From positions 27,839-91,838 of the forward strand of contig NZ_JAQGKZ010000059.1 in NCBI RefSeq assembly GCF_028289855.1: DNA of 64,000 nucleotides. Direction: 5' to 3'. The translations under genes were made by a program, and so were the position numbers. Shown here piece by piece: positions 17,681 to 25,034 of the stretch (the first letter of the stretch is position 1; each line of letters begins with the position of its first letter). The DNA is from Sphingomonas bacterium (GTDB taxonomy: Bacteria; Pseudomonadota; Alphaproteobacteria; Sphingomonadales; Sphingomonadaceae). Under the pieces are notes generated by a model. The model was not told the DNA's origin and searched no databases. It was given only the letters and a program-made list of their open reading frames with translations.

Positions 17681-18142
17681 TCAGCTCAGTTCCTTTACCG
17701 CCGCCAGAACCTGTTCGACATGACCCGGTACCTTTACCTTGCGCCACGTCCTGACCAGCTTGCCCGATGCGTCGAACAGCCAGGTCGAGCGGTCGATCCC
17801 CATATAGTCGCGGCCATAGAGAACCTTGGGCACCCAGGCACCGAACGCCTCGATCACCTCTTGCTCATCACTCGCCAGCGGCACTGTCAAATCGTATTTG
17901 GCGGTGAACTTGGCGTGCTTGGCGGCTGTATCCTTCGACACGCCGAGCACCGCCACCCCAGCCTTCGCGAAGTCAGGCAGCGCCGCGCTGAACTCCTGCG
18001 CTTCCTTGGTGCAACCGCCGGTGTCGTCCTTGGGATAGAAATAGAGCACGAAAGGCTTGCCAACGAAGCTTCGAAGCCGGATCGGGCCATCGGCGCCGGT
18101 CAGTTCGAGATCGGGCAGGTCCGCCCCCTCTTCAACGCTCAT
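17681..18142 (-). CDS. bcp: Thioredoxin-dependent thiol peroxidase (BCP/PrxQ-type peroxiredoxin)
   Basis: Reduces hydroperoxides through a peroxidatic cysteine. 153 residues with 'FVLYFYPKDDTGGCTKEAQEF'. The usual motif is DDTPGCT; here Pro is replaced by Gly. The resolving Cys five residues on, found in E. coli Bcp, is replaced by Gln, suggesting 1-Cys-type chemistry. 'LLFDASGKLVRTWRKVKVPGH' supports the BCP subfamily. The start 'MSVEEGADLPDLEL' overlaps the end of glnE by 11 bases, so the two are probably co-transcribed. Confidence 0.92.
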   Translation of the reverse strand: MSVEEGADLPDLELTGADGPIRLRSFVGKPFVLYFYPKDDTGGCTKEAQEFSAALPDFAKAGVAVLGVSKDTAAKHAKFTAKYDLTVPLASDEQEVIEAFGAWVPKVLYGRDYMGIDRSTWLFDASGKLVRTWRKVKVPGHVEQVLAAVKELS

Positions 18143-20810
18143 CCCGTCCTCCGCTGACGCTCGCCCAGAAACGCGAAACCTCCTGCCGCGTCGCGTCGAA
18201 CCGCGCAACCAGCGCACTCCAGCTCTCGGCACCGAGCACGCGCACAATCAGTGCCTGCGTCGCGATTGACGGCGGCTCGCTGTCGGGCGCGACGAGGCGC
18301 AGCAGCACCAGCATCCGCGTGAGCAGCCGATACGCCTCGCCGATCGCCGCCGGCACGATAGCGTGTTCCGCCAACGTGGCGATCGCGGGATCGAGATCGG
18401 GATCGAACCCCGTGCGGTGCGTCAGTTGCGCGACGTGGACGGCGAATTCGAGGTCGACCAGCGCGCCGGGCAGCAACTTGGCGTCGAGCGGCCCCCCGGG
18501 TGGCTTATGCCGCGCCATTTCGGCGCGCATCCCGGCTGCGTCGGTGACGATCTTGGCCGCGTCGCGCGGCGTCGCCAGGACCTCATCGATCACCGCCGTC
18601 ACCGCCGCGCGCGCTGAGTCCGACCCGAAGATCGCCCGTGCGCGAGTCAGCGCCATATGCTCCCACGTCCACGCATCCTCGCGCTGATACCGCGCGAACC
18701 CGTCGAGCGAGACGACTAACGGCCCTTGCGCGCCCGACGGCCGCAACCGCGTGTCGATGTCGTAGAGCGGGCCGGCGGCGGTCGGCACCGACAAAGCGGC
18801 GCTGAGCCGCTGTGCGAGGCGGTTGTAGTAATGCACCGCGCCGAGCGGCTTCGGGCCATCCGATTCACCCGCGAAATCGCCGGTGAACAGATAGATCAGG
18901 TCGAGGTCGGAAGCATGCGTCATCGCCCCGCCACCGAGCCGCCCCAGCGCGAGGATCAGCAATTCGCTGTCGGGCACATGCCCGTGCGTCTTGGCGAAAT
19001 CGGCGACGGTGGCGGCGGCGAGCACGTCGACGGCGGAGACCGCGACGCGGGCGTAACCGTGCGCCACGTCGAGCGGATCGCTGGTCCCGGCGACGAGTTG
19101 CGCCCCCAGTGCGAAGCGCTTTTCACCGACGACGCGGCGAACATGTTCGAGCGCACCCTGGTAGTCGTCGCCCTCCTCGGCGCCTGACATTTCTTTGATC
19201 AACGCCTGCAGGTCGCCCACCGGCGCGAGTGCGGTCGCGTCGATCAGCCCGTCGAGCAGAGCCGGGCGCCGTCCCAATGCTTCGGCCAGCAGCGGCGCGT
19301 GACTGAGGATCGTCGCCATCAACTGCGCGAGTTGCGGGCGCGCTTCGAGCAAACGGAAGAAATTGATCGCGCTGGGTAGCCGCGAGAGCATCGCGTCGAT
19401 CTGGATCAGCGCCGCCCGCGGATCGGGCGCTTGGCCCAACGCCGTCATCAACCCGGGGAGGACCGCTTCGAGCGCCTGCCGCGCGGCCGCGCTGCGCAGC
19501 GCCGGATACGACCCGCCGCGCCAACGCTCTACCAGTTGCGCGGCGGTCGCGGCGTCCGCGAAGCCGATGCTTTCGAGTTGCGCCGGTAACGTTTCGCCGT
19601 CGCTCGATAAGGCGGCGGTATCGGGCGGGTCGAGCGAATCGTAGATCGCGCCCACCGCCAAAACATGCGGCTTGAGCATCGCGATCAGCGATGCGCCGCT
19701 GCCGAACGCCGCAAGCTGCCCCACATTGTCGAGTGCATCCTGCCCGCGCGGCAGCGCGTGGGTCTGGCGGTCGTCTACCATTTGCAGCCGATGCTCGGTG
19801 GTGCGGAACGCGACGTACGCGGCCTTCAGCGTTGCCGCCTCGTCCGCGCCGATCCGCCCCGCCGCCGCCAGCCCGTCCAGCGCGTCGATCGTTGCCGGCG
19901 CCCGCAATCCCGCGTCGCGCCCGCCGTGGATCAGCTGATGGATCTGCGCGAAGAATTCGATTTCGCGGATTCCGCCGCGCCCGCGCTTGAGATCGTAGCC
20001 GGGGCCGAACGCCTGACCTTGCGAATGGTGATCGCGGATGCGTCGGGTGATCTCGCGGATATCGCCGACAGCGCCGAAATCGACCCCGCGGCGCCACACG
20101 AACGGGCGGATCGCGTCGAGGAAGCGCCGACCCAACGCAAGATCCCCGGCAACGGCACGCGCCCGAATGAACGCGGCGCGCTCCCACGGCAAAGCCGCCG
20201 ATTCGTAATAGGAAATCGCGCCGTCGACCGGCAGCGCGATCGGTGTGGCCTCGGGCGAAGGACGCAGCCGCAGATCGACGCGTAGCACATACCCCTCACC
20301 GTCACGCGCCTGAAGCAATTCGACTACGCGGCGTCCGATACGGATCGCGGCTTCTTGCGGTTCTTCGCGCGGACGGTGCGGCAACGTCGCGGGATCGAAC
20401 AACAGGATCGGGTCGATGTCGGACGAATAATTGAGCTCGCAACTCCCCTGCTTGCCGAGCGCGATGGCGGCGAAGCCGATCGGCTCGGCGTCGGGCGTGC
20501 GTTCGTGGATCGCGGCGCGGATCGCCGCGTCGAGCGCACGATCGGCGAACGCGGTCAGCCGCTGCGTCACGCCGGCAAGATCGAGCGCGCCGGCGAGGTC
20601 GGCGATCGCGACGATCAACGCCTCGCGCCGCCGGGCGCGGCGCAATGCGACGCCGATCGGCAGGTCGGGATCGAACGGCAGCGGATCGGGCACGATACCG
20701 ACGGCCAATTCCGCCGCTAGATCAGGCTGTTGCTCCAGCGCAACACGCAGGAACGGCGCATGCGCGGCGGCGCGTGCGAGAGCGTCGGCAAAGTCGGGCG
20801 GCGTGATCAC
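18132..20810 (-). CDS. glnE: Bifunctional glutamine synthetase adenylyltransferase/adenylyl-removing enzyme
   Basis: Controls glutamine synthetase by AMP addition and removal in response to PII and glutamine. Two nucleotidyltransferase domains are visible: the N-terminal (deadenylylating) 'ALGKQGSCELNYSSDIDPILLF' and the C-terminal (adenylylating) 'ALGRLGGGAMTHASDLDLIYLF', where 'GGAM' replaces the usual GGxEM. A four-helix regulatory region separates them. At 892 residues it is on the short side. It is read divergently from nepR2 across about 120 bases. Confidence 0.95.
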   Translation of the reverse strand: MITPPDFADALARAAAHAPFLRVALEQQPDLAAELAVGIVPDPLPFDPDLPIGVALRRARRREALIVAIADLAGALDLAGVTQRLTAFADRALDAAIRAAIHERTPDAEPIGFAAIALGKQGSCELNYSSDIDPILLFDPATLPHRPREEPQEAAIRIGRRVVELLQARDGEGYVLRVDLRLRPSPEATPIALPVDGAISYYESAALPWERAAFIRARAVAGDLALGRRFLDAIRPFVWRRGVDFGAVGDIREITRRIRDHHSQGQAFGPGYDLKRGRGGIREIEFFAQIHQLIHGGRDAGLRAPATIDALDGLAAAGRIGADEAATLKAAYVAFRTTEHRLQMVDDRQTHALPRGQDALDNVGQLAAFGSGASLIAMLKPHVLAVGAIYDSLDPPDTAALSSDGETLPAQLESIGFADAATAAQLVERWRGGSYPALRSAAARQALEAVLPGLMTALGQAPDPRAALIQIDAMLSRLPSAINFFRLLEARPQLAQLMATILSHAPLLAEALGRRPALLDGLIDATALAPVGDLQALIKEMSGAEEGDDYQGALEHVRRVVGEKRFALGAQLVAGTSDPLDVAHGYARVAVSAVDVLAAATVADFAKTHGHVPDSELLILALGRLGGGAMTHASDLDLIYLFTGDFAGESDGPKPLGAVHYYNRLAQRLSAALSVPTAAGPLYDIDTRLRPSGAQGPLVVSLDGFARYQREDAWTWEHMALTRARAIFGSDSARAAVTAVIDEVLATPRDAAKIVTDAAGMRAEMARHKPPGGPLDAKLLPGALVDLEFAVHVAQLTHRTGFDPDLDPAIATLAEHAIVPAAIGEAYRLLTRMLVLLRLVAPDSEPPSIATQALIVRVLGAESWSALVARFDATRQEVSRFWASVSGGRDER

Positions 20811-20933
20811 AGCCTTGCCCTAGCCCAAGCGGCGAAGCGCGAGAATTGCCGAGATCGTTACGGACTGATTCAAATTAATGTGCAGCGCAGCAACAAATCG
20901 GCAACAAATTGTCGCATCGCACGTTTTTCCCGA

Positions 20934-21104
20934 ATGAGCCCGCCGCCTTCCCAGAGTGCCGCTACCCCCGATAGCTTACGCCAGACGGTTCGCATGCCGC
21001 GCGAAAGCGACGGCGTGGGAAGTGCGCTACGCCAGATTTTCGCCGGCGTTCCGGCGCTGCCGTCCGAATGGCGCGCTTTATTGGGCCGGCTCGACAACGG
21101 CTAA
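20934..21104 (+). CDS. Second NepR-like anti-sigma factor (NepR2)
   Basis: A 56-residue ORF too short for most gene callers. Its C-terminal half, 'VGSALRQIFAGVPALPSEWRALLGRLD', aligns with NepR encoded 2 kb away ('MGTALRTVYHTAVSEPVPNEMLDLLRKLD'): shared G-x-ALR, x-P-x-E and LLxxLD with a two-residue deletion. The N-terminus is Pro/Ser-rich and unstructured, as in NepR. NepR proteins sequester EcfG until phosphorylated PhyR displaces it. The stop overlaps the convergent ecfG stop by 4 bases (CTAA). The context, next to the sigma gene, strongly supports a role in the same circuit. It could be a diverged paralogue with altered affinity. Confidence 0.7.
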   Translation: MSPPPSQSAATPDSLRQTVRMPRESDGVGSALRQIFAGVPALPSEWRALLGRLDNG

Positions 21105-21769
21105 TCCTCGTCGTCGGGATCGTCCGGGCGCGGGTTATGCTCGCCGCTAAGCTCGTCGACCTCATCCATGATCGTGTCGAGCGCGGTACGTCCCTGATTG
21201 TCGGGCGCGTGGCGGCGTGAGGCGAGGTCGTTGCCGCTCAGGATCGATTCGAGCGCGACGCGCCCGCGCGCCACCCGGCTCTTGATCGTTCCGACCGCGA
21301 CGTTGCAGATCTCGGCCGCTTCCTCGTAAGCGAAGCCGCCCGCGCCCACCAAAATCAGTGCCTCGCGCTGCGGTTGGGGCAGGTGCAGCAACGCGCGCTG
21401 CATATCGCCGAGCTCGACATGCTTGTCCTGACTCGCGGGTGCCGCGAGCACGCGGTCGGCGACCAGGTCGTCCCATTCGCCCTTGAACCGCGCGCGGCGC
21501 ATCTGGCTGAGATAAAGATTGCGCAAGATGATGAAGGTCCACGCGCGCATATTGGTGCCGGCCTGAAACCGCTGGCGCGCGGCCCACGCCTTCATCAGGG
21601 TTTCCTGGACCAGATCGTCGGCAAGATCGCGGCTGCCCGACAGCGAGCGGCCGAACGCGCGAAGGTGCGGGATAACCTGCGCCAACTGGTCCTTGAACTC
21701 GGGATCCGACAGCGCGACGTGCTCGATCGCCTCCCCCTCATCCATCGCATCGGTGTCGGTCGTGGTCAT
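21101..21769 (-). CDS. ecfG: General stress response ECF sigma factor EcfG
   Basis: An ECF sigma factor of 222 residues. Region 2 is 'HLRAFGRSLSGSRDLADDLVQETLMKAW...TNMRAWTFIILRNLYLSQMRR'; region 4 is 'LPQPQREALILVGAGGFAYEEAAEICNVAVGTIKSRVARGR'. These closely match the alphaproteobacterial EcfG (ECF15) group, which directs transcription from GGAAC-N16/17-CGTT promoters. About 40 extra acidic residues at the C-terminus ('HNPRPDDPDDED') go beyond the sigma domains. A GGAG ribosome binding site lies 6 bases before the ATG. It lies downstream of phyR and the small membrane gene. Confidence 0.93.
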   Translation of the reverse strand: MTTTDTDAMDEGEAIEHVALSDPEFKDQLAQVIPHLRAFGRSLSGSRDLADDLVQETLMKAWAARQRFQAGTNMRAWTFIILRNLYLSQMRRARFKGEWDDLVADRVLAAPASQDKHVELGDMQRALLHLPQPQREALILVGAGGFAYEEAAEICNVAVGTIKSRVARGRVALESILSGNDLASRRHAPDNQGRTALDTIMDEVDELSGEHNPRPDDPDDED

Positions 21770-21851: not shown

Positions 21852-22016
21852 TCATTTGTTGAACAGCACCGGGCCCCAGACGATCAGCGAGAGGATCCCG
21901 ATCGCCAGCACGATCGAAATGCCGAGGACGTAGCGCATGTGCCCGGATGTTTCACCGGCGCGTGCCTCATCGCCGCTTTCGCGGACCGGCGCGTCTGGAG
22001 ATTCTGGATCAGTCAT
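21852..22016 (-). CDS. Small single-pass membrane protein in the GSR locus
   Basis: 54 residues: a soluble acidic N-terminus ('MTDPESPDAPVRESGDEARAGE') and one helix ('YVLGISIVLAIGILSLIVWGPVLF'). It lies between phyR and ecfG on their strand (gaps of 65 and 82 bases). The start follows a GGGGG tract; the track's earlier start is unlikely. I do not recognise the family. Its position suggests expression with the sigma factor, and it may be an envelope-stress accessory, but no function can be read from sequence. Confidence 0.65.
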   Translation of the reverse strand: MTDPESPDAPVRESGDEARAGETSGHMRYVLGISIVLAIGILSLIVWGPVLFNK

Positions 22017-22024
22017 ATCCCCCG

Positions 22025-22049
22025 AACGCACCAATTCCGTTTTGGCTCC
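22025..22049 (-). promoter_or_regulatory. Possible sigma-EcfG promoter, one mismatch (GGAGC-N16-CGTT)
   Basis: On the minus strand, one base from consensus in the -35 element with correct spacing, directly before the small membrane protein and ecfG. The -10 element is so close to the ATG that a leaderless or very short leader would result, which lowers confidence. If real, it would give EcfG autoregulation. Confidence 0.3.
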
Positions 22050-22081: not shown

Positions 22082-22888
22082 TCAAGCAGGAATCGTGCTC
22101 TCGTCGAAGAACAGCGCCTGACTGATCGCTGCCTTCACCGTCGATCGCTGAAACGGCTTGGTGATCAGGAAGGTCGGCTCGGGCCGCTCTCCGGTCAGCA
22201 AACGCTCCGGGAAAGCGGTGATGAAGATCACCGGTACCTGGAATTCGGCGAGGATGTCCTTGACCGCGTCGACCCCCGAACTGTCGTCGGCAAGCTGAAT
22301 GTCGGCAAGCACCAGCCCGGGCCGGTCGGCCATCGCCGAGGCGACCGCTTCGTCGCGAGTTACCGCCACGCCGGTCACGTCATGACCAAGGTCGCGGACG
22401 ATCGTTTCGATATCCATCGCGATGATCGGCTCGTCTTCGATGATCAGGACGCGCGAACGCGTCTGCTTTTCGATCTCGGCGAGCGCGTCGGCGACAAGGC
22501 TTTCGACCTCGTCGCCATCGGCATCGATCAGATAACCGGCATCCTCGGGCGTGAAGCCCTCCATCGCGGTCAGCAGCAGCGCCTGGCGCGACAAAGGAGT
22601 CATCTTCGCGAGCCGCGCGCGTGCGACCGCTTCCTGACCCCCAGTGTCCGACCCGTCATCGCTCAGCGCGACCTCGTCGTCGCGATTGGTGGTGCGCCAG
22701 ATAACCTGGAACGTGCGGTACAATCCCAGGCGCGGATCGACATCGCGCGGAAATTCCTCGGGCGCGGCGACGATCGCCTCGAGCGCGGCGCGGACGTAGC
22801 GGTCGCCATGGTCCTGGCTCCCGGTTAGCGCGCGGCCATAGCGGCGCAGGAACGGCAGGTGCGGTGCGAGTTGCTGACCGAGCGACAT
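22082..22888 (-). CDS. phyR: General stress response regulator PhyR
   Basis: A 268-residue partner-switch regulator. The N-terminal sigma-like domain (about 1-140: 'LGQQLAPHLPFLRRYGRALTGSQDHGDRYV', 'MTPLSRQALLLTAMEGFTPEDAGYLI') mimics EcfG and captures NepR. The C-terminal receiver has acidic residues in 'LIIEDEP', phospho-acceptor Asp196 ('LVLADIQLADDSSG') and Lys244 in 'PTFLITKPF'. Phosphorylation exposes the sigma-like domain, NepR is pulled off EcfG and the stress regulon is switched on. The start is the ATG at 'MSLGQQL'. It is divergent from nepR. Confidence 0.96.
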   Translation of the reverse strand: MSLGQQLAPHLPFLRRYGRALTGSQDHGDRYVRAALEAIVAAPEEFPRDVDPRLGLYRTFQVIWRTTNRDDEVALSDDGSDTGGQEAVARARLAKMTPLSRQALLLTAMEGFTPEDAGYLIDADGDEVESLVADALAEIEKQTRSRVLIIEDEPIIAMDIETIVRDLGHDVTGVAVTRDEAVASAMADRPGLVLADIQLADDSSGVDAVKDILAEFQVPVIFITAFPERLLTGERPEPTFLITKPFQRSTVKAAISQALFFDESTIPA

Positions 22889-22973: not shown

Positions 22974-22998
22974 GGAACAATCGAGAGCGTTTTTGGTT
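22974..22998 (+). promoter_or_regulatory. Probable sigma-EcfG promoter of nepR (GGAAC-N16-GGTT)
   Basis: An exact -35 GGAAC and correct 16-base spacer, with one mismatch in the -10 element (GGTT for CGTT). It lies in the phyR-nepR divergent region about 100 bases before nepR. nepR is commonly autoregulated by EcfG, so the position supports the call. Confidence 0.5.
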
Positions 22999-23096: not shown

Positions 23097-23264
23097 TTGC
23101 CAGAGCGGCGGTCATCAAAGCGGGGAGGTCCCGGCGACGGTGATGGAAACGGCAAAAAGCTAAAAGACGAAGCGATGGGGACCGCACTACGCACGGTATA
23201 TCATACCGCCGTCAGCGAACCCGTGCCCAACGAAATGCTCGATCTGCTCCGCAAGCTGGATTAG
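23097..23264 (+). CDS. nepR: Anti-sigma factor NepR
   Basis: A 55-residue anti-sigma factor that binds EcfG, or phosphorylated PhyR. The conserved core is 'MGTALRTVYHTAVSEPVPNEMLDLLRKLD' after a charged flexible N-terminus ('PERRSSKRGGPGDGDGNGKK'). I place the start at a TTG because GAGGGGG lies 6 bases upstream and the length then fits the family; the track start lies further upstream in non-homologous sequence. The stop is 3 bases before the phyP start, implying coupled translation of the two negative regulators. Confidence 0.93.
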   Translation: MPERRSSKRGGPGDGDGNGKKLKDEAMGTALRTVYHTAVSEPVPNEMLDLLRKLD

Positions 23265-23267
23265 CCC

Positions 23268-24848
23268 GTGGCTGGGCTTATGGCTGGTGGGCGCCCGGGC
23301 ACATTAAGCGCTCGCCTCGGACGGCTGCCGACCGGACCCAAGATTTTCCTCATTCTGTCGGCGGCGCTGCTGCCGTTCGCGATCATAGCGATTCTGGCGA
23401 CGCTGGCCACCACGCGGCAAGCGGGCCAGGAAGCGCGATCGCAATTGCGCGTCGCGGCGCAGGAAAGTTCACGCAACCTGGCGATCGAACTGGTCGGCGA
23501 CATGACCGCGCTGACCACCGCGATGAACGCGCTCGCCGCCGATCATGCCGACGCGCCGAGTTGCGCACGCGCCCGCGGCGTTTTCGCGCAACAGATTGCA
23601 GCGGGCGCCAGTTTCACCATCAGCGACCGGACCGGTCGATTGCTGTGCGGCACCGCGCCCCCGTTCTCCGTCCCCAACGCCATTGCCGGCGGTCAGCCGT
23701 CGGCGCGCGTGGTGCCGGGCAAAGGCATCGTTCTGGCGATCACCGCCGCCGGCGGGGGTTTGCGCGGAAGCGCGTTCTTCCCGGCAAAATTTCTCAGCGG
23801 CGTCGCCAGGCCGAGCGCGTTCGGGGTCGATTATGCCGAGGTCATCCGCGATCCGGACGGCCAGGAACTCAACCTGCGCACACTCGACCAGGATCGCCCG
23901 CTCGATCGGCATGACTCGGTCAGCGTGCCGCTCAACATTGGTAATTTGACGGCGGTTCTGAATATCAGCAGCAACCCGATCACCTGGCCCATCTTCACCG
24001 CCTTGCTCCTGCCGATCCTGATGTGGCTGGCCGCCGCCAGCCTGGCCTGGCTCGTCGTCGACCGCTTGCTGATCCAGCCGCTGCGCACGCTGCGCGCGCG
24101 GGTGGCGGCCTACCGCCCGGGCGAGGAAATCGCCTCATCCGATGTCCGGTCCTTGCCCGCGCAGGAAATTCGCGAGCTCGGCGAAACCTTTCGCTCATTG
24201 AGCCGCACGCTGATCCTCCACGAGGCCGGCCTCGCCGAGGGGCTGGTGCGCCAGACCAAGCTGACGCGCGAGGTTCACCACCGCGTCAAGAACAACCTCC
24301 AGGTCATTTCCAGCCTGATCAACCTGCACTCGCGCGGGGCGAAGGCGGAAGAAGCGGCGCGCGCGTATTCGTCGATCCAGCGGCGAGTCGATGCGCTGTC
24401 GGTGGTCCACCGCCACCATTTCGCGGAGATGGAGGATCATCGCGGGTTGTCGCTGCGCGCGGTGATCGGCGAACTGGCGTCGAACATCCGCGCGACCAGC
24501 CCGGAAGGGTCGAAGCTGGGCATCCTGCTCGAAGTCGAGCCCTATCTGGTCACCCAGGACAATGCGATCGCGATCGCGTTTCTGCTGACCGAGATCATCG
24601 AGCTGGCGATCGCTATCAATCCCTGCGCGCAACTTCGGCTGTCGGTCCGCGCAGGCGACACGCCGGACAAGGCGATCCTGCGTGCCAGTTCGCCCGGGCT
24701 GATCGAGGGCGACGGGCTGAAAGCGGCGCTCGACCAGCGCTACGCCCGGGTGATGGAAGGGCTGTCACGCCAATTGCGCGCGCCGCTGCACCACGATCCG
24801 CTCGCCGGCGCGTATGAAATTGCGATTGCGATTACCGGAAAAGACTGA
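23268..24848 (+). CDS. phyP: PhyP-like HisKA_2 membrane protein with degenerate ATPase domain
   Basis: 526 residues: TM1 about 26-48, an extracytoplasmic sensor (about 50-240), TM2 about 241-268, a HAMP-like linker ('LLIQPLRTLRARVAAYRPGEE') and a HisKA_2 dimerisation domain with the phospho-site in 'REVHHRVKNNLQVISSLI' (His337/338). The ATPase region is degenerate: the N-box is replaced by 'LLTEIIELAIAINP' with no Asn, and no DxGxG or G2 glycine loop is visible. That fits PhyP of Sphingomonas, a negative regulator acting as a PhyR phosphatase rather than a kinase. GTG start; ATG at 23280 is an alternative. Confidence 0.85.
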   Translation: MAGLMAGGRPGTLSARLGRLPTGPKIFLILSAALLPFAIIAILATLATTRQAGQEARSQLRVAAQESSRNLAIELVGDMTALTTAMNALAADHADAPSCARARGVFAQQIAAGASFTISDRTGRLLCGTAPPFSVPNAIAGGQPSARVVPGKGIVLAITAAGGGLRGSAFFPAKFLSGVARPSAFGVDYAEVIRDPDGQELNLRTLDQDRPLDRHDSVSVPLNIGNLTAVLNISSNPITWPIFTALLLPILMWLAAASLAWLVVDRLLIQPLRTLRARVAAYRPGEEIASSDVRSLPAQEIRELGETFRSLSRTLILHEAGLAEGLVRQTKLTREVHHRVKNNLQVISSLINLHSRGAKAEEAARAYSSIQRRVDALSVVHRHHFAEMEDHRGLSLRAVIGELASNIRATSPEGSKLGILLEVEPYLVTQDNAIAIAFLLTEIIELAIAINPCAQLRLSVRAGDTPDKAILRASSPGLIEGDGLKAALDQRYARVMEGLSRQLRAPLHHDPLAGAYEIAIAITGKD

Positions 24849-24903: not shown

Positions 24904-24928
24904 GGAACCGCATCGCGAAAGGGGCGTT
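24904..24928 (+). promoter_or_regulatory. Sigma-EcfG promoter GGAAC-N16-CGTT
   Basis: A perfect match in both elements and spacing, inside the GSR locus, with an A/T tract directly upstream and a structured, terminator-ended RNA directly downstream. Convergent tatC ends at 25067, so there is no protein gene for it to drive. Confidence 0.8.
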
Positions 24929-24934
24929 TTCATT

Positions 24935-25034
24935 CTCGGATAGCGAATTTATGCCCCCCCGCTCTCGCTATCCAAGACATAGGCCCGGCAGCGCACCCCT
25001 CCCCCCCGGTAGCGCTTCCGGGCCTAAATCTTTT
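24935..25034 (+). ncRNA. Putative stress-induced small RNA with two C-rich loop hairpins
   Basis: About 100 nt from the expected start 7 bases past the -10 element. Hairpin 1: GGATAGCGA / TCGCTATCC (9 bp) with an 18-nt loop containing CCCCCCC. Hairpin 2: AGGCCCGG / CCGGGCCT plus AGCGC / GCGCT across one mismatch, with a 17-nt loop containing CCCCTCCCCCCC. It is followed by AAATCTTTT, so hairpin 2 doubles as a rho-independent terminator. C-rich loops that pair with Shine-Dalgarno sequences are a known design in alphaproteobacterial sRNAs; Caulobacter GsrN is a stress-sigma-controlled example. No ORF is present. Ends are predicted, not measured. Confidence 0.7.

Follow-up and report, generated by a model that had tools for sequence, protein, structure and literature searches.

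What does the short reading frame that ends against ecfG in this Sphingomonas locus encode, to what is its product related, and how would that product act on the sigma switch? The window, i.e., the whole stretch of 64,000 nucleotides that was analyzed, contains a general-stress-response locus in which the original prediction read an ORF of 56 codons as an overlooked gene of a second NepR-like anti-sigma protein. This ORF is called nepR2 below. The locus contains the following features.

18132–20810, minus strand: glnE (PF03710), the divergent neighbor that marks the nepR2 slot
20901–20925, plus strand: putative EcfG-type promoter of nepR2, GCAAC-N16-CGTT (-35 box at 20901–20905, -10 box at 20922–20925)
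20934–21104, plus strand: nepR2, encoding a 56-aa NepR-like protein (from translation and alignment)
nepR2, P22 and D26: N-terminal conserved motif PRxxD-[VI]G
nepR2, residues about 27–36: helix 1, with L32, R33 and F36
nepR2, residues about 44–55: helix 2
21101–21769, minus strand: ecfG, general-stress-response sigma factor (Pfam Sigma70_r2/r4_2)
21852–22016, minus strand: small membrane-protein gene in the place of gene #1446 of Sphingomonas melonis Fr1, kept in the same place in relatives
22082–22888, minus strand: phyR, anti-anti-sigma response regulator (PhyR_sigma2, PhyR_sigma-like and Response_reg; NF006623 above the cut-off)
22974–22998: EcfG-type site of nepR, GGAAC-N16-GGTT
23097–23264, plus strand: nepR, canonical anti-sigma factor (PF18557 at 34.2 bits, cut-off 25.7), with a probable TTG start
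23268–24848, plus strand: phyT/phyP-like HisKA_2/HWE histidine kinase gene (PF07568 and PF07536; synteny with Fr1-like genomes)

The gene and its conservation

Translation of the plus strand bore out the ORF at 20934–21104, which consists of 56 codons followed by TAA and encodes MSPPPSQSAATPDSLRQTVRMPRESDGVGSALRQIFAGVPALPSEWRALLGRLDNG. The predicted overlap with ecfG was also found: the ecfG stop (21101–21103, minus strand) and the nepR2 stop (21102–21104) share 4 bases in convergent orientation. The genome search showed that no other close copy of ecfG exists in the genome (the next best match has 36% identity, E=2e-12), that phyR at 22082–22888 is the sole full-length copy, and that nepR at 23097–23264 is the sole PF18557 match. 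The nepR gene probably starts at the TTG at 23097, because GGGGG lies upstream and the resulting length agrees with the numbering of the Fr1 NepR within one residue. A gene caller that accepts only ATG would therefore truncate or miss nepR.

Using related genomes, we determined whether nepR2 keeps its place beside ecfG. A divergent glnE was present in 55/55 nepR2 loci, and a convergent ecfG in 53/53 loci whose fetched stretch reaches ecfG; these 55 loci are the best-scoring matches and lean to clear cases, and synteny was no selection criterion. The order glnE (leftward), nepR2 (rightward), ecfG and phyR (both leftward), nepR and phyT (both rightward) is kept across Sphingomonas and other Sphingomonadaceae genera, the latter represented by loci L130, L131, L132, L133, L135 and L136. 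The query with a single NepR2 protein retrieved 8 named Sphingomonas-type loci. The genus profile gave matches in 246/250 at E≤0.01; since canonical NepR is caught by it too, this figure was not used to count NepR2, and synteny was scored on the fetched loci instead. In one other genus (L127, L128, L129 and L139), nepR2 is divergent from glnE, its linker is longer and more NepR-like, and no ecfG match was found within the fetched stretch.

Purifying selection on the reading frame was confirmed as well. The dN/dS of close nepR2 pairs is about 0–0.3. Between the window gene and its three nearest relatives it is 0.24–0.39 at a dS of about 1–1.4, and NepR2 is looser in the window's own lineage than elsewhere. 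Distant pairs are saturated, and their dN/dS is little informative. Thus, the gene is real: 55 distinct orthologues keep its place, frame and sequence, and close pairs are under purifying selection. Both checks had been proposed with the original prediction, and both turned out in favor of the gene. The opposite reading, a chance frame in GC-rich DNA, would fit the shortness of the ORF and the failure of Pfam and NCBIfam to match its product. We reject it as having next to no probability: the ORF, its motif, its slot and the site upstream are kept across the 55 orthologues, dN/dS is low, the orthologue profile retrieves NepR from the PDB, and the orthologue in Fr1 has been characterized.

The original prediction also drew attention to RNA antisense to ecfG. 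If transcription rather than the protein mattered, RNA antisense to the 3' end of ecfG would lower EcfG. The two genes are indeed convergent wherever the locus includes ecfG (53 loci), and their stops overlap by 4 bases in the window. Among the loci compared, however, only the window genome and its two closest relatives have this overlap, so it does not hold as a conserved feature; in most relatives 3 to about 180 bases separate the stops, and in three loci about 1 kb lies between them. The reading frame is under purifying selection, plasmid-borne NepR2 of Fr1 is active, and single residue changes lower its activity (PMC6599016). Antisense transcription as the main function is very improbable, and we rejected it.

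Homology to canonical NepR

The claim that NepR2 is a NepR paralogue with a homologous C-terminal half was confirmed in several ways. BLASTP, run as a single comparison, aligned the window NepR2 with the NepR of the same locus at E=1e-4 (10/33 positions identical, 20/33 similar) and left a gap of 2 residues in the NepR2 linker. The same two-residue gap appeared when 18 NepR2 orthologues were aligned with 15 NepRs by hhalign (96.6% probability, E=6e-10), so the linker deletion described at first was seen by both methods. We compared the profile of the 18 NepR2 orthologues with 177,635 PDB sequences. The top two matches were 2lfw_B (E=0.0017) and 3t0y_B (E=0.37). Chain B of 2LFW and chain B of 3T0Y are solved NepR chains, and 2LFW is the NepR of Fr1. 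The shared elements ALR, P-x-E and LLxxLD are present in the window protein as first noted, and P22, D26, A31, L32, P43 and L50 are invariant in the alignment of the 18 orthologues.

The family models gave a different result. Neither Pfam, including PF18557, nor NCBIfam matched the window protein even at E≤10, and PF18557 gave weak matches to only 7/18 NepR2 orthologues (best E=0.0012). Thus, in the case tested, the standard family models miss NepR2. The window protein fails the PF18557 cut-off, yet the homologous two-helix core is present according to hhalign, the PDB matches and the predicted helices. The AlphaFold model of the window NepR2 places helices at residues 27–36 and 44–55 with a mean pLDDT of 70, and these predicted helices would fit a two-helix NepR core; the pTM of 0.31 is low, so that their mutual placement is not trustworthy.

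Canonical NepR (PF18557; 2LFW chain B and 3T0Y chain B) and NepR2 have in common the core G.ALR..[YF]...P.[DE]m..LL..L and a place in the general-stress-response locus. Unlike canonical NepR, the NepR2 proteins form a separate clade, carry an additional PRxxD motif before helix 1, have a shorter linker, and match PF18557 below the cut-off or not at all. They also lack E41 and K53, two residues that vary little or not at all among the 15 NepRs compared. That sigma binding was lost with these two residues is a guess. In a tree of 46 sequences, NepR and NepR2 lie on opposite sides of one branch with support of 100/99; the tree is built on 60 columns only, and most of its other forks are poorly resolved. 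Both proteins are present in several genera, and the duplication that separated them is therefore older than several Sphingomonadaceae genera.

EcfG-type sites and a probable small RNA

Upstream of nepR2, GCAAC-N16-CGTT ends 8 nt before the ATG. With [CG]GTT allowed, 41/55 orthologues carry the motif 8–9 nt ahead of the start, against none in 200 rounds of dinucleotide shuffling, and a relaxed motif with slack at each box was found 4–14 nt before the start in 55/55; the start codons had been chosen without reference to the promoter motif. Ten NepR2 genes of other genera have the relaxed site with an ATG 8–13 nt after it, and in L127 ATGs follow the relaxed site at 2, 8 and 14 nt. Genome-wide, the strict motif is not over-represented, with 61 matches against 106 for the reversed control. 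We therefore rejected the rarity of the motif as proof of a promoter, and the promoter claim rests on the conserved position and not on the match.

A -10 box lies at a usual distance from the transcription start. Because the distance from promoter to start codon is fixed, the transcript would begin at or very near the nepR2 ATG, and the mRNA would have no leader or almost none. Among the EcfG promoters of one sphingomonad, the -35 boxes reported most often are GGAAC and GCAAC (PMC7083833).

A similar site was noticed at the small membrane-protein gene. Here GGAGC-N16-CGTT at 22049–22025 stops 8 nt short of the ATG, which matches the near-leaderless spacing of nepR2. Gene #1446 is among the most strongly EcfG-dependent genes of Fr1.

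Downstream of the kinase gene, at 24904–25034 on the plus strand, an EcfG-type site (GGAAC-N16-CGTT, 24904–24928) precedes a predicted RNA of about 100 nt. It has two hairpins with C-rich loops (GCCCCCCCGC; ACCCCUCCCCCCC) and folds far better than its shuffles (z=-6.57). In eight further Sphingomonadaceae loci, the RNA is conserved together with its EcfG-type site downstream of a phyT-like gene, and its stems covary, with 12 cells changed on both sides (0/500 shuffles were as high). No Rfam family reached the threshold for this RNA. In Caulobacter and Rhizobiaceae, the EcfG-dependent RNA GsrN, which has a C-rich 5' loop, is encoded near these genes or co-regulated with them, and no gsrN gene was seen in Erythrobacter litoralis (PMC5869019). 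Among the papers searched, none described a GsrN-like RNA of sphingomonads. The features of the RNA at 24904–25034 suggest a small RNA of the GsrN type that belongs to the general stress response, and it may be more novel in this region than nepR2.

The Fr1 counterpart and the probable action of NepR2

Gottschlich et al. (2019) described gene #1448, which adjoins ecfG in S. melonis Fr1, has a NepR-like C-terminus and was named NepR2 (PMC6599016). Fr1 NepR2 belongs to the EcfG regulon, although its induction by stress was just under the authors' cut-off (PMC6599016). An EcfG-dependent reporter was more active in the deletion mutant and less active on over-expression, which also led to less salt resistance, and NepR2 co-precipitated with PhyR (PMC6599016). 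The activity was lowered by L31A and F35A, but not by M46A and R32A (PMC6599016).

The genus search yielded two genomes (G130 and G179) that are identical to the Fr1 NepR core of 2LFW over 34 residues. In NepR2 of G179, L31, R32, F35 and M46 fall at the numbers published for Fr1 NepR2 (PMC6599016). The window equivalents are L32, R33 and F36, with W46 at the place of the methionine; thus, the residues equivalent to L31 and F35, which are needed for activity, are present. In the tree, the window NepR2 falls on the side of the NepR2 proteins of Fr1-like genomes, and canonical NepR lies on the other (support 100/99). Both genes lie next to ecfG in the general-stress-response locus, both proteins have a C-terminal NepR-like half, and nepR, phyR, phyT and #1446 are found at the same locus in both; the likeness in an EcfG-type promoter was read from the closest available genome. 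The window protein differs by a numbering one higher, W for M46 and the 4-base ecfG overlap, and it is known from sequence alone, whereas the Fr1 protein has been studied experimentally. By its sequence and place, the window protein is the counterpart (orthologue) of Fr1 NepR2. The gene is thus not new, having been published in 2019 (PMC6599016), and it was overlooked only in the sense that Pfam and NCBIfam miss its product.

The gene, its homology, orthology and conservation, and a promoter-like site at a fixed place were established here; that NepR2 of the window acts as in Fr1, and does so by competition with NepR for PhyR rather than by weak binding of EcfG, is what we infer. It is likely that the window NepR2, like its Fr1 orthologue, is induced by EcfG and restrains the general stress response by negative feedback via PhyR. 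Stress would activate PhyR, which would draw NepR off EcfG. Freed EcfG would then transcribe nepR2 from GCAAC-N16-CGTT just upstream of the ATG, and NepR2 would occupy PhyR through a two-helix element like that of NepR. NepR released in this way could recapture EcfG, and the response would be limited or shut off. This model is the one proposed for META2p0735 of M. extorquens (PMC4814048) and for Fr1 NepR2.

The word anti-sigma may be the wrong label for such a protein. When Fr1 NepR2 and EcfG were co-expressed, both were unstable, unlike NepR and EcfG (data not shown by the authors; PMC6599016). The authors take this as a hint, albeit an indirect one, that NepR2 and EcfG form no complex (PMC6599016). 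The NepR-like part of the original description stands, and the anti-sigma part is put in doubt. NepR2 could still be a second true anti-sigma factor and a second inducible brake, binding both EcfG and PhyR, as RsiA2 of S. meliloti does. It has the helix 1/helix 2 core in common with NepR, its gene usually stays beside ecfG, and in S. meliloti RsiA1 and RsiA2 each bind the sigma factor and both PhyRs (PMC4814048). However, the instability in Fr1, the absence of E41 and K53 together with the shorter linker, and the four loci of another genus in which glnE-nepR2 is retained and the fetched stretch shows no ecfG match make this unlikely. Of the two readings put forward at first, that of a PhyR-insensitive brake is the less likely; it is contradicted by the co-precipitation of Fr1 NepR2 with PhyR (PMC6599016).

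A wider version of the preferred PhyR-directed reading is possible, and we put it forward more tentatively. In it, NepR2 would be a paralogue of ancient origin, common throughout Sphingomonas and also present in further Sphingomonadaceae genera, which no longer binds the sigma factor and instead serves solely to antagonize PhyR ('anti-anti-anti-sigma'). Its EcfG-driven mRNA would be leaderless or nearly so, with fixed promoter-to-start spacing. If so, NepR2 would appear without a conventional Shine–Dalgarno leader as soon as EcfG is freed.

The observation on NepR2 in a single strain, Fr1, is thus widened to what may be a lineage-wide pattern, a built-in off-switch induced by the sigma factor itself. 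Newly added are the well-separated NepR and NepR2 clades with a duplication that predates several Sphingomonadaceae genera, the failure of the family models on the window protein, and the putative EcfG-type promoter at fixed spacing. For annotation, NepR2 can be recognized by PRxxD-[IV]G-x-ALR, a short linker and no E41/K53, plus the promoter signature. Two separable paralogues also provide a means to ask which NepR features bind the sigma factor, PhyR, or both.

Among other NepR-type systems, MexAM1_META2p0735 of M. extorquens is likened to NepR2 by its features, not by orthology. It is a NepR homologue with an EcfG-type promoter, its over-expression lowers the response, and it is the proposed competitor of NepR for PhyR (PMC4814048). 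It binds PhyR and is controlled by EcfG, and no binding to any EcfG was detected (PMC4814048). It differs from Sphingomonas NepR2 in belonging to another order, and its genome encodes six EcfGs and several NepR paralogues, of which it is one. RsiA2 of S. meliloti is likewise a second NepR-type protein and a negative regulator, but its sigma factor, which it binds in vitro, does not control it (PMC4814048). 'NepR2' of Sphingopyxis granuli TFA has in common with the window protein the name and a sphingomonad host (PMC7083833). The TFA gene lies just upstream of ecfG1 in one operon and in the same direction, with a 4 bp overlap (PMC7083833); by its position it would be a cognate NepR, and the common name is misleading. 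The name NepR2 thus covers two different things, the gene of the TFA ecfG1 operon and the ecfG-adjacent gene of Fr1, to which that of the window corresponds.
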